A stretch of 64,000 bases of DNA from Nitrospira sp. ND1 (GTDB lineage: Bacteria > Nitrospirota > Nitrospiria > Nitrospirales > Nitrospiraceae): positions 576,501 through 640,500 of the forward strand of contig NZ_FWEX01000006.1 in the NCBI RefSeq assembly GCF_900170025.1. Direction: 5' to 3'. The translations under genes were made by a program, and so were the position numbers. Numbering within the stretch: position 1 is the first letter of the stretch; the number at the start of each line of letters is the position of its first letter. A model generated the notes under the pieces. That model was not told the DNA's origin. It did not search any database and was given only the letters and a program-made list of their open reading frames with translations. Below are positions 22,062 through 52,104 of the stretch, piece by piece.

Positions 22062-22136
22062 TGGCAGGGGCACTAGGATTTGAACCTAGACTCTCGGTTT
22101 TGGAGACCGATGTGCTGCCGTTGACACCATGCCCCT
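22062..22136 (-). tRNA. tRNA-Trp (CCA)
   Basis: On the minus strand a complete cloverleaf can be drawn: acceptor stem AGGGGCA pairing with TGCCCCT, anticodon stem TCGGT/ACCGA with loop CTCCAAA (anticodon CCA), and T arm TAGGTTCAAATCCTA. The 3' GCCA is encoded. Position between rpmG and secE is a common arrangement. Confidence 0.96.
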
Positions 22137-22194
22137 CCACCCGGAACATGAGCGCTGCCGAGCCAAGGGCCATGCCCAACCCAGCAGAAAAAGC

Positions 22195-22344
22195 CTACTT
22201 CACTTCCTTATGAGCGATGTGCTTCCGGCAGAACTTACAGAACTTGTTCCGCTCCAATCGATCCGGATCGTTCTTCTTGTTCTTGCGGGTCGTATAATTT
22301 CGCTGCTTACAGACCGTACAGGCCAAATCGATAATATCTCGCAT
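22195..22344 (-). CDS. rpmG: 50S ribosomal protein L33
   Basis: A 49-residue L33 read directly from the minus strand: ATG at 22344, TAG at 22197-22195. It has two CxxC pairs (CTVC at 9-12 and CKFC at 36-39), so it is the zinc-binding form, with the typical [21 protein letters not shown] stretch between. It lies between tuf and tRNA-Trp upstream of secE, the usual place. Confidence 0.95.
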
Positions 22345-22422
22345 TTGCCATCCCCTGAGCCGTCAACTCTCAGCCATCAGCCCTAACTCGCGAGCTGACC
22401 ACTGATCGCCGATCGCGCATTC

Positions 22423-23628
<1,206 letters not shown>

Positions 23629-23716
23629 GATTCACTCCTTTTCTCAGAAAACACTCAAGGTTTTATCCGGTCGCCTCGAACCACCCTCAGGGCTCCCGGT
23701 CGGGTCAAGCATGGTA

Positions 23717-23792
23717 TGGAGCCCACGACGCGAATCGAACGCGTGACCTCGTCCTTACCAAGGACGTGCTCTGCCAACTGAGCTACGTGGGC
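23717..23792 (-). tRNA. tRNA-Thr (GGT)
   Basis: Minus-strand cloverleaf: acceptor GCCCACG with CGTGGGC, D arm TAGCTCAGTTGGCAGAGC, anticodon stem GTCCT/AGGAC with loop TGGTA region (anticodon GGT), T arm ACGCGTTCGATTCGCGT, encoded 3' TCCA. 76 nt. Directly upstream of tuf. Confidence 0.96.
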
Positions 23793-23859
23793 CCTGAACT
23801 CACAGTCTTAGTCCGCCCTCACACGCTCTGTCCGCACCCGCGGTCGAGCACGCTGGATT

Positions 23860-23934
23860 TGGAGCGGGCGATGGGATTTGAACCCACGACAGCCAGCTTG
23901 GAAGGCTGGAACTCTACCACTGAGCTACGCCCGC
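23860..23934 (-). tRNA. tRNA-Gly (TCC)
   Basis: Minus-strand cloverleaf: acceptor GCGGGCG with CGCCCGC, D arm TAGCTCAGTGGTAGAG, anticodon stem CAGC/GCTG with loop CTTCCAA (anticodon TCC), T arm GTGGGTTCAAATCCCAT, encoded 3' TCCA. 75 nt. Second in the tRNA-tuf transcript. Confidence 0.96.
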
Positions 23935-24077
23935 CCACAGTGACCCGACCAACACTCCAACGATCCGACGGCGACACGCTCGGCCACACAATGCTGCGCA
24001 CCGCCAGATCGCGCTCATTATCATTGTCCAACCGGACGCACACGTTTCACGTGAGATTCGGTCGAATACGCTCAGTT

Positions 24078-24163
24078 TGGTGGGCAGGCAAGGATTCGAA
24101 CCTTGGAAGCCATAAGGCAGCAGATTTACAGTCTGCCCCCTTTGTCCACTTGGGTACCTGCCC
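24078..24163 (-). tRNA. tRNA-Tyr (GTA)
   Basis: Minus-strand class II tRNA of 86 nt: acceptor GGGCAGG with CCTGCCC, anticodon stem GCAGA/TCTGC with loop CTGTAAA (anticodon GTA), a long variable arm (TGCCTTATGGCTTCC region), T arm AAGGTTCGAATCCTT, encoded 3' ACCA. First gene after the promoter at 24345-24373. Confidence 0.96.
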
Positions 24164-45776: not shown

Positions 45777-46193
45777 TTAGGCTGACCGTTTCCAGTTTTC
45801 GACGCTGAGGCCAGCGATGCGCTGGAAGTGAGCGAGATTGTTCGTGATCAAGGGTCGCTGCGTTTCCAAGGCGGTGGCAGCAATGAGGAGGTCCGCATCG
45901 GGCAGCAAGGCTCCCTGTCGATGGAGGTCACCGTATAATGTCGCCGCACGTTCCACGACTTGGTCGGTGATCGGGAGAATGAGACTCGCCTGGCATAGCA
46001 ACGTGAAGGCCGCCTCTTGAGTCCGCGCCTGTTTCGCCTTCAGTCCCCGCAGGAGTTCATAACGCGTGATGATCGAGAAGGCAAGCCGCTGGTGCTCCGC
46101 CAGACAATTCCGCACCCGCTGCACGACGAGAGGATGTTGCTTGAGGAGTTCTGAGAGAATATCGGTATCGAGCAGAACGGCGGGTTGCGGCAT
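45777..46193 (-). CDS. vapC: PIN-domain toxin (VapC-like)
   Basis: A 138-residue PIN ribonuclease. Acidic metal-binding residues are in place: Asp9 (LLDTDILSELL), Glu46 (TRYELLRG), Asp99 and Asp101 (LLPDADLLIAATAL), then TNNLAHFQRI at the end. Such toxins usually cleave tRNA or rRNA. Start and the antitoxin stop overlap as TAATG. Likely stabilises the element. Confidence 0.9.
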   Translation of the reverse strand: MPQPAVLLDTDILSELLKQHPLVVQRVRNCLAEHQRLAFSIITRYELLRGLKAKQARTQEAAFTLLCQASLILPITDQVVERAATLYGDLHRQGALLPDADLLIAATALETQRPLITNNLAHFQRIAGLSVENWKRSA

Positions 46194-46429
46194 TAGGCAG
46201 CCGGTTCACGGAAGAAGTGCTGTCGATCTAATGCGATGGACTCAACCTGCGTGATCTCGTCAGCACTCAGCCCTTGATAAACCTGTGCGGCACGCCGCAG
46301 AATTTCGTCCGTACCGAGCGCAAGGTCGGTATCGACCGTCACTTGTACTTCCGCGTCATCGTTCAGCGCGAGAGGTTCCAACGGCTGTAACACTCCGTCA
46401 TGATAACGAGCTTTGATCGTTTGTCGCAT
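46193..46429 (-). CDS. Antitoxin of AF2212/PG0164-like (DUF104) type
   Basis: A 78-residue protein from ATG at 46429 with GGGAGGG 7 nt upstream. The N-terminus, RQTIKARYHDGVLQPLEPLALNDDAEVQVTVD, is the typical beta-barrel opening of AF2212-like antitoxins, followed by a helical tail that would bind the toxin. Paired with the PIN gene through a 1-nt overlap. A longer frame to 46471 is possible but lacks a site. Confidence 0.85.
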   Translation of the reverse strand: MRQTIKARYHDGVLQPLEPLALNDDAEVQVTVDTDLALGTDEILRRAAQVYQGLSADEITQVESIALDRQHFFREPAA

Positions 46430-46607
46430 CGGAAAACCCTCCCATGCATTCACCTGTATGCGGCACTGCATTGGTAGACCCCATTCTACTCAAACCGCGC
46501 CCAAATCTCACCACTTGCCGCAAGATTGCACATCATTCTGTCAAGAGAGTTCGGGCTATCGCTGTCTCTAACTAACCGTCTCAGTGAAGGGGGTCGCCCC
46601 AAAACAC

Positions 46608-49903: not shown

Positions 49904-50010
49904 CCGCCTGCCCCGCCCGTTCCCGCCTCCGGACTCACGGATGGAAACAGGGATTTCTTGCCAGATATCACCTGCTTGGATAGACTTTTCTCAATAGAGG
50001 GACAGGACAC

Positions 50011-51723
50011 ATGGCACGAGCGAGAGCTAGCGAACCGCAACGCAGCCGATCGAAACAGAACGCCGTCGAAGAACTCAACCGTGGCATCACCACGTTGCGT
50101 GAACTGAGCTCACAGATCGATGACCTGAGCAGAGATGGATTCCCGTATCGTGACGCAGTCCGCGCCAGAACCGAACTTTCCCTCCGGGAATCGATCCGGC
50201 GACTATTCGGTGAAAAGTCGCCGGAATACCAGGCCCACAAGAATCACAAGCTCCGAATCGGCAATCGCACGGAGTCGGCACAGAGCACCACTCTGCTCAA
50301 AGAATTGATCGTCCAGCTGGAGAATCAGAAGGCAGAGCTTTTGGGCCTCACACCGGCAGAAACCGCGCCACCTCCACCGACAGCCCCTGAACGCCCCACA
50401 CTGACGGCAGTTCCTGCGACTCAACCCGCTATTCCAGTCGTGCCACCCCAGGCTCCGAGCACCGCCCCCCTCGCGACCGTCAGTATGATCAACGCTCCGG
50501 CAACCGTCTCAGTAGCGACGACAAGCATCAGCCAACCCGCTCAGCCCATCGCTCCGATCGTTATGACAACACCCGTCTCGTCTACTTCCGCCTCCCCGCC
50601 GGTCACCCAGGGGACCGCATCACAACCGATTCGCGATACATCGATACAACGCCTGCCCCCGCAACCACCATCACCCCCGCTGCACTCCGCCACATCTGAA
50701 GCCTCCGGGATCCCGGCTGAGAAAACTGCGCCGGCATCCCTGCCCGCTTCACCATCACTGCCCGCAGAACCTGTTGTCGCTGCGCCATCAACGAATAGCG
50801 CAACGCCCTCGGAGCAGACAGTGCGCGGCGAGGCCGCCCCGACACCACTACCGCCAATGGCGCCGGCGCGGTCCACGATTCCATCGGGAACCATTCCCCC
50901 CATTCCACGAATGAACTCCGTCCCGGCACCTGTGCCGACTGCTCCTATCGAGCCCCCTCCGACACCGCAGCAGGCCTCCAAGCCAACGGACATCCCGGCA
51001 CAAAAACCGGCTCCAGCCCCCGTCGCGGTGATTCCGGCAAGCCAAGCCACAACCGAGATAGCCGCCGAAAAACAAGCGCGCGATCCTCGACCGCCCGTTC
51101 CCCAAGTTCGAACCGAGATATCGCTCCCACCAGCCATGCCCGCGCTCGCATCAGTTCTCGAGTCCAAACCGGAACCGCCGGTCATATCTCCCGTCAAACC
51201 GCCAGAGACACCAACGGTACTCACAACGCCGCTGGATACGAATAGGAACAATCATCAATCGGAGGGCGCAACGCTCGATACACTCCGCCGAATGTGTGCG
51301 CGCTTCCACCTGGTCGCTCGACAACTGCGGCTGCGAAAAGAATACCGGCCTACACTGGAGATCACGGACGAGTACGATCTGCAGGACCTGTTTTACGCAC
51401 TTCTCCGGTTACAATTCGATGAGGTGGGCACGGAAGAATGGACCCCGCCTTATGCCGACGGTGCTCGCCGGACGAGCTATCTCCTCGACTGGGAAAAAAC
51501 GGTGGTGGTGGTCAAACAGACTCGCTCAGGATTGACGAGCAGAGACATCGCCGAGCAGATCGCCACAGACAAAGCCCATTACTCCGGGCGTCCGAACGGA
51601 GCCACGTTGTTGTGCTTCATCTACGATCCTGACGGGCGAGTGGGCAACCCCCGAGGGTTGGAGGCAGATCTTTCGACAGTCGGCGACACGTACAGAGTAG
51701 AAGTCATCGTGGCTCCCAAGTAA
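50011..51723 (+). CDS. Proline-rich protein with C-terminal DpnII/MboI-type restriction endonuclease fold
   Basis: 570 residues in three parts. N-terminal helical domain 1-110 (NRGITTLRELSSQIDDL, ESIRRLFGEKSPEYQAHK), a Pro/Ala/Thr-rich low-complexity linker of about 300 residues, and residues 421-570 matching the PD-(D/E)xK domain of the DpnII/MboI group: LQDLFYALLRLQFDEVGTEEWTPPYADGARR, TVVVVKQTRSGLTSRDIAEQIATDKAHYS, TLLCFIYDPDGRVGNPRGLEADLS. Typical members have an Asp where Ser489 stands and Glu in the E-x-K where Val500 stands; only Lys502 is kept. So the fold seems kept but catalysis lost. Such domains are often part of defence or signalling proteins. Confidence 0.78.
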   Translation: MARARASEPQRSRSKQNAVEELNRGITTLRELSSQIDDLSRDGFPYRDAVRARTELSLRESIRRLFGEKSPEYQAHKNHKLRIGNRTESAQSTTLLKELIVQLENQKAELLGLTPAETAPPPPTAPERPTLTAVPATQPAIPVVPPQAPSTAPLATVSMINAPATVSVATTSISQPAQPIAPIVMTTPVSSTSASPPVTQGTASQPIRDTSIQRLPPQPPSPPLHSATSEASGIPAEKTAPASLPASPSLPAEPVVAAPSTNSATPSEQTVRGEAAPTPLPPMAPARSTIPSGTIPPIPRMNSVPAPVPTAPIEPPPTPQQASKPTDIPAQKPAPAPVAVIPASQATTEIAAEKQARDPRPPVPQVRTEISLPPAMPALASVLESKPEPPVISPVKPPETPTVLTTPLDTNRNNHQSEGATLDTLRRMCARFHLVARQLRLRKEYRPTLEITDEYDLQDLFYALLRLQFDEVGTEEWTPPYADGARRTSYLLDWEKTVVVVKQTRSGLTSRDIAEQIATDKAHYSGRPNGATLLCFIYDPDGRVGNPRGLEADLSTVGDTYRVEVIVAPK

Positions 51724-51849: not shown

Positions 51850-52104
51850 ATGCCGGACCGAGCCTACGTATTGATCAACGTGCATCCCGGCCAAACCGCT
51901 GATGTCGTCAAAGCCCTTGGGGATATTAAGGAAATCAAACAAATCGACCCCTGTTGGGGAAAGCCCGACATCTTCACCATCGTTGAAATTCCCCACCAGG
52001 ACGCACTGACCCAACTCGTGCTCGCGAAAATTCACGCCATCCCCGGTGTCGATCAGACAGATACGCACATGGTCTATCGCCTTCAGGAGGGCAAGCCAAA
52101 GTGA
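51850..52104 (+). CDS. Stand-alone Lrp/AsnC ligand-binding (RAM) domain protein
   Basis: An 84-residue protein: AYVLINVHPGQTADVVKALGDIKEIKQIDPCWGKPDIFTIVEIPHQDALTQLVLAKIHAIPGVDQTDTHMV. This is the RAM domain alone with no HTH, the beta-alpha-beta-beta-alpha-beta unit that binds amino acids in Lrp proteins. Conserved G-x-D after the first helix is kept. It overlaps the next gene's GTG by 4 nt. Confidence 0.88.
   Translation: MPDRAYVLINVHPGQTADVVKALGDIKEIKQIDPCWGKPDIFTIVEIPHQDALTQLVLAKIHAIPGVDQTDTHMVYRLQEGKPK

Follow-up and report, generated by a model that had tools for sequence, protein, structure and literature searches.

A DpnII/MboI-type nuclease domain without its catalytic acids in a widely conserved protein of the Nitrospiraceae

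Organization of the locus and of the encoded protein

The window, by which the whole stretch of 64,000 nucleotides analysed is meant, carries on the forward strand at 50011..51723 a gene for a protein of 570 amino acids, referred to here as the pseudo-nuclease, in which a basic tail and a helical N-domain are followed by a Pro-rich arm and an apparently dead PF18742 (DpnII/MboI-type) domain. Residues 1-113 (50011..50349, forward strand) comprise the tail, with a net charge of +3 over 20 amino acids, and an all-helical domain containing the motif FGEKSPEY, as delineated by alignments and a four-helix model. The arm spans residues 116-410 (50356..51240, forward) and contains 73 prolines among its 295 residues, close to the length of about 300 given in the preliminary description; its dN/dS ratio marks it as a fast-evolving segment. 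The C-domain, residues 424-570 (51280..51720, forward), was matched by the Pfam profile PF18742 (REase_DpnII-MboI) over positions 2-150 of 150 with an E value of 9.8e-52 and 174.9 bits, the curated cut-off being 27 bits, and the profile search of this C-terminal part bore out the DpnII/MboI assignment made earlier. Profile match and model together describe a PD-(D/E)XK-like domain which appears to be catalytically dismantled. From the alignments, the codon of Ser489 (51475..51477, forward) stands at the position of the catalytic Asp, and codons 500-502 (51508..51516, forward) include Val500, at the position of the catalytic Glu, and the retained Lys502.

The gene is present as a single copy, no second PF18742 copy being found in the genome. 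A search of NCBIfam with the protein gave no match, and the closest named records are from Nitrospira, among them 'Candidatus Nitrospira defluvii'. The name of the Pfam family is no indicator of GATC specificity; GATC occurs upstream of the gene in 34 of 60 thinned loci, which is uninformative, and a role for this sequence was dropped. A Pfam scan of five neighbouring ORFs revealed no DNA methyltransferase among them.

Promoter and gene neighbourhood

Upstream of the gene lies a promoter-like sequence, TTGCCA-N17-TAGACT (49958..49986, forward; 9/12 matches), which is conserved in orthologues. The pattern TTGYCA-N17/18-TAGACT was found upstream in 77 of 137 orthologous loci, 76 of them with a 17-bp spacer, compared with a mean of 0.1 and a maximum of 1 after shuffling. 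In its strict form it is absent from 60 of the 137 loci, a count that mixes start-site errors with real absence and in which many near-variants can be seen by eye; the loci retaining a single catalytic acid, described below, are all without it. An extended form, TTTTCTTGYCA-N17-TAGACTTT, recurs in several genera with the surrounding DNA diverged (e.g. window 49950-49990), and this element may have a function beyond that of an ordinary promoter.

A lone response regulator is encoded on the same strand and ends 107 nt before the pseudo-nuclease gene, and a signalling partnership of the two had been proposed in the preliminary description. A close homologue (>180 bits) of the regulator was found near the gene in 24 of 152 loci, belonging to one genus and one neighbouring genome, and in 17 of these 24 the conserved promoter lies upstream of the pseudo-nuclease gene, between the two. 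The signalling unit was therefore rejected.

On the downstream side, at 51850..52104 (forward), a stand-alone Lrp/AsnC ligand-binding domain protein of 84 residues is encoded (PF01037, E 1.7e-10). Such a gene lies close to that of the pseudo-nuclease at 137 of 152 loci, and 171 of 175 Nitrospiraceae genomes have some copy of it. The adjacency was not accepted as proof of a common function, since the two genes are separated by a gap with a median of 164 nt (119 cases where it could be set), a second promoter-like box, TTGACW, is seen by eye upstream of the Lrp/AsnC-domain gene, the block is conserved as a whole, and this neighbour persists with the rest of the downstream block in 10 of 10 checked genomes that have no pseudo-nuclease (genera g19, g20, g22 and some of g17). 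Other neighbours, which we take from their sequences to be a small lipoprotein-like protein, a convergent NtrC-type regulator, a histidine kinase and a 4-alpha-glucanotransferase-like protein, lie near the gene in 118, 140, 133 and 130 of the 152 loci, respectively, some misses in these counts being due to contig ends. Elsewhere in the window, on the reverse strand, there is a PIN-domain and AF2212-like gene pair (45777-46471), presumably resembling a VapBC-type toxin-antitoxin module, and a cluster of tRNA genes for Trp, Thr, Gly and Tyr (22062-24163).

Residues at the catalytic positions

The catalytic positions were assigned from alignments of approximately 29-60% identity with few gaps. 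In all 37 readable relatives outside the orthologous group, Asp, Glu and Lys were read by eye at the positions of S489, V500 and K502. These relatives comprise 13 alignment rows, 3 plasmid proteins, the loci L182, L174, L215, L216 and L244, and 16 further loci, and come from cyanobacteria, proteobacteria, plasmids, viral contigs and Nitrospirota genomes; L281 (Asp alone in view) and the broken frames L272/L274 and L284/L288 were omitted as unreadable, together with L285-L287, which have no profile match, and the 60-aa fragment L220. The three residues are likewise invariant in a further alignment (A4).

The orthologue set consists of 147 loci in Nitrospiraceae, one of them unreadable. None of the 146 readable orthologues keeps both acids: 134 have neither, 10 have the Asp alone and 2 the Glu alone, and Lys is found at the K502 position in 138. 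This tally was made without L182, L174, L215 and L216, which are intact and not orthologous, and without the fragment L220; among the 157 loci fetched, L214, L217, L218, L219 and L221 show no match to the window's domain, L194 (the match in genome G143) is a 10-base placeholder, and L195 and L222 both belong to a single gene of genome G084, each covering a piece of it. In the dead rows the Asp is replaced by T, S, A, M, G, V or R, and the Glu by V, I, L, T, M or A. Non-acidic residues at both sites in so large a share of orthologues, with many flanking residues conserved, are far beyond chance. The earlier statement that Ser489 and Val500 stand where related proteins have Asp and Glu, next to a kept lysine, was thus confirmed, as was the conservation of the substitutions among relatives, and the window protein has only the last of the three residues that define an active nuclease of this type. 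In genomes G015 and G016 a fully dead copy coexists with a second one that has the Asp only (L176 and L186) and shows no Lrp/AsnC gene in the surroundings covered.

Conservation and selection

Median dN/dS values, obtained for the window's genus and one neighbouring genome after pairs outside the usable dS range had been dropped, were 0.08 for the C-domain (95 pairs), 0.11 for the N-domain (245 pairs) and 0.57 for the arm (146 pairs). Decay towards a pseudogene was rejected on the value of 0.08 and on the open frames found across Nitrospiraceae. Retention in 56 thinned dead rows was 1.0 for R442, R446, D453/D456/D459, T504 and F536/Y538/D539/P540, 0.98 for K502 and D520, and 0.91 for R505. Despite the loss of the acids, strong purifying selection maintains the lysine, other conserved motifs and the fold. 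R473 and K493 are invariant in 14 intact rows but stand at 0.0 and 0.02 in the 56 dead rows, and the median net charge of the C-domain is about -1 in the dead rows versus -3 in the intact ones. An alternative Asp or Glu in the active site had been sought as a sign against the loss of the catalytic acids, and in the 56 thinned dead rows no acid is newly conserved in place of the lost ones. D453/D456/D459 and the other invariant acids are equally invariant in the intact relatives, and are therefore not replacements for the lost metal site.

Distribution, intact relatives and phylogeny

The PF18742 domain was found in 147 of 175 Nitrospiraceae genomes, a number which includes G040 with the intact type only, in 101 of the 114 good ones, and in 18 of 22 genera, g19-g22 having none. 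In a draw from the phylum 106 of 395 genomes matched, 98 of them from Nitrospiraceae by our count of the rows; for the phyla to which two of the intact relatives belong, the counts were 7 of 398 and 14 of 386. Among the 28 Nitrospiraceae genomes without a match, 21 are of 2.7 Mb or less, and the absence from 28 of 175 indicates that the gene is dispensable. No defence island was seen around the window gene and its inheritance is vertical; the patchiness and association with mobile elements that characterize mobile defence genes were not observed for it. A vertically inherited core role of the pseudo-nuclease is considered highly probable.

PF18742-type proteins were found on 216 plasmid records, 166 of which are conjugative, and on 1 record of a phage collection, and the intact relatives were matched by the PADLOC models Aga_Helical-REase and PDC-S35. 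Close intact copies within Nitrospiraceae were seen in just two genomes, G017 and G040. In the former, at L182 4602-8978, an intact D/E/K nuclease has as neighbours a phage-type integrase and an ORF resembling nucleoside 2-deoxyribosyltransferase, the whole being a mobile region in a genome of the same genus. Intact PF18742 proteins, such as the 285-codon frame of L182, have the same C-domain and may share the helical N-domain as well; the window protein is 48% identical in its C-domain to the intact L046. The intact proteins keep Asp/Glu/Lys, show no long Pro-rich arm in the sequences inspected and are patchy and mobile, whereas the window-type orthologues are dead, near-core and vertically inherited, with an arm of 42-305 residues across 138 loci.

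For the quick tree 148 rows were thinned to 68, with 81 rows in all. In the careful tree the 14 intact rows form one side of a branch with support of 100/100. The fully dead rows form one group within the orthologues (85/89), the single-acid rows branch apart, and L192 (Glu only) is sister to L185 (Asp only) with support of 99/90. At least three changes are needed at each catalytic site on this tree, whose root was not inferred by the program, the direction being set by the outside relatives. The single-acid forms are the deepest branches among the orthologues, and the active site was therefore dismantled stepwise, along at least two routes. Read most simply, the tree implies that the ancestor was intact, that partial losses occurred repeatedly and that complete loss took place once, prior to the radiation of the large genera. 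The arm has a median length of 83 residues in single-acid rows (n=11) versus 204 in fully dead rows (n=51), the rows not being phylogenetically independent.

Predicted fold and the N-domain

The AF2 model of the C-domain has a pLDDT of 89.4 and a pTM of 0.85. Foldseek returned nothing at E 0.001 or better for this model, and a search of solved structures by sequence yielded a single match, attributed to chance (E 1.7). In VIA-align BstYI came first (Z 7.4), BamHI reached 6.6, and McrC, Can2, EndoMS and Shedu were also listed; the list holds mostly restriction or defence nucleases with some unrelated rows, all Z values are below 8 and thus moderate, and absence from it does not exclude a family. 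A PD-(D/E)XK-like fold is predicted on these models with moderate support. BstYI and BamHI, among the nearest solved folds at 5-8% identity, are live enzymes, and to our knowledge neither has such a Pro-rich arm.

The model of the N-domain consists of four helices with moderate confidence (pLDDT 77.5). Its fold search gave no match better than E 0.93, and Pfam yielded scattered weak matches only. Profile comparison with the N-domains of intact PF18742 proteins gave P 0.008, and a second run 0.046 with a reversed control at 0.16. The PADLOC model PDC-S35 matched the N-domains of 10 of 26 members weakly (best E 0.0042), at the same model positions that match the N-domain of the intact paralogue at E 1.2e-12. 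The preliminary description had regarded the GEKSPEY domain as a partner of this nuclease elsewhere; these comparisons make the relationship suggestive and leave it short of the known partnership that had been claimed. By description, the domain is also like the DpnII/MboI-NTD in size, helicity and N-terminal place, the latter being characterized in PMC3710099 as a mostly helical unit of about 100 residues located N-terminal to nuclease or HEPN domains.

Discussion

The window protein is a member of the PF18742 family and, to judge from its residues, not one of its active nucleases. Its best explanation, which has in our estimate an even chance of being correct as a whole, is that a mobile defence nuclease was domesticated and became a core protein which does not cleave and probably binds nucleic acid. 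The death and domestication of the nuclease are well supported, and its catalytic inactivity may be assumed with great confidence; the binding of nucleic acid as the mechanism is evenly poised. An intact ancestor would have come from the patchy, plasmid- and island-borne PF18742 family. In one long-lived vertical branch of this family in Nitrospiraceae both metal-binding acids are gone, which would leave the present-day protein without catalysis. The retained surface formed by R442, R446, K502-T504-R505 and Y538-D539-P540 may grip nucleic acid, probably DNA, without cutting it, and the arm would act as a flexible tether, the basic-tailed N-domain and the C-domain engaging two sites or a partner. 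The gene would be expressed from its own sigma-70-type promoter, and the product would serve in housekeeping binding, bridging or sensing rather than as a defence effector.

The points counted for a domesticated pseudo-nuclease are the precedent of RecC, the identity of the domain, the presence of D/E/K in every readable outside relative, the orthologue tally, the tree, the retained motifs, the purifying selection, the near-core status, the gene's own promoter, the list of similar folds and the arm lengths. Counted against it are the slightly acidic C-domain, the loss of R473 and K493, by which a DNA-facing surface may have been partly removed, the moderate fold matches, the genomes without the gene and the loci without the promoter. 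With regard to the precedent, RecC is reported in PMC1185551 to contain an inactivated PD-(D/E)xK domain whose role on DNA is non-catalytic, and the window C-domain would be like the C-terminal domain of RecC in being a dead domain of this type kept for a non-cleaving role. RecC, however, belongs to the RecBCD complex, in which its partner is a live nuclease, whereas no second PF18742 copy was found in the window's genome.

The loss of basic residues, the slight acidity and the long Pro-rich arm, which is typical of tethers, could also be expected of a protein-protein scaffold, in which the dead domain would be a docking or dimer surface that binds no nucleic acid and the N-domain and arm would recruit partners. 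This possibility deserves some weight, although it is the less probable for the almost complete retention of Lys502, a residue without an obvious scaffold role, together with T504-R505. It is rather unlikely that the protein has retained a function in immunity, as a non-cleaving sensor or decoy for phage DNA or for a phage inhibitor of the intact relatives, or as a damper of an intact copy: the intact relatives are indeed defence-like, as seen from the PADLOC models, the conjugative plasmids and the integrase-bearing region of G017, but close intact copies were seen in just the two Nitrospiraceae genomes named above, and the neighbourhood is an old conserved block around a near-universal, vertically inherited and not patchy gene.

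A cryptic nuclease, with the metal site rebuilt from D453/D456/D459, E475/E476 or the local D493, might be suspected because the N-terminal helix and the stretch preceding the lost Asp contain several fully or almost fully invariant acids. It appears quite improbable, since none of these acids is peculiar to the dead clade, position 493 carries Asp in 39 of the counted rows and Asn in 86, and both canonical acids were replaced by many unrelated residues. An output or partner of the upstream response regulator in one signalling operon, as the short distance and common strand might suggest, can hardly be credited in view of the rarity of the regulator and the intervening promoter. For the domesticated pseudo-nuclease, one may go further and speculate, with more doubt than confidence, that there was one capture near the base of the Nitrospiraceae, followed by stepwise disarming and lengthening of the arm, which led to a housekeeping chromosomal protein that bridges DNA or reads its sequence.

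Inactivated nuclease domains as such are known; what is new is a near-core, dead, long-armed nuclease of defence type with living intermediates. In the literature searched, and within that scope, no text contained 'DpnII-MboI' or 'PF18742', and nothing on this Nitrospira protein was found in titles or in the beginnings of abstracts. Dead domains were previously known singly, as in RecC. Here a bacterial family as a whole carries one, for which intact relatives outside the orthologous group, intermediates with a single acid and fully dead forms are all available, and extant members thereby offer a test of how a defence enzyme is converted into a core protein; if the capture scenario above is true, these members would be a natural series leading from a restriction-type enzyme to a non-cleaving chromosome protein. 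For annotation, a high-scoring hit in PF18742 or in the Aga_Helical-REase models of PADLOC does not amount to a working defence nuclease, nearly all Nitrospiraceae matches being without the catalytic acids. As a separate observation on annotation, many of the listed plasmid PF18742-type proteins are labelled 'malate dehydrogenase', apparently an annotation error that has been propagated.
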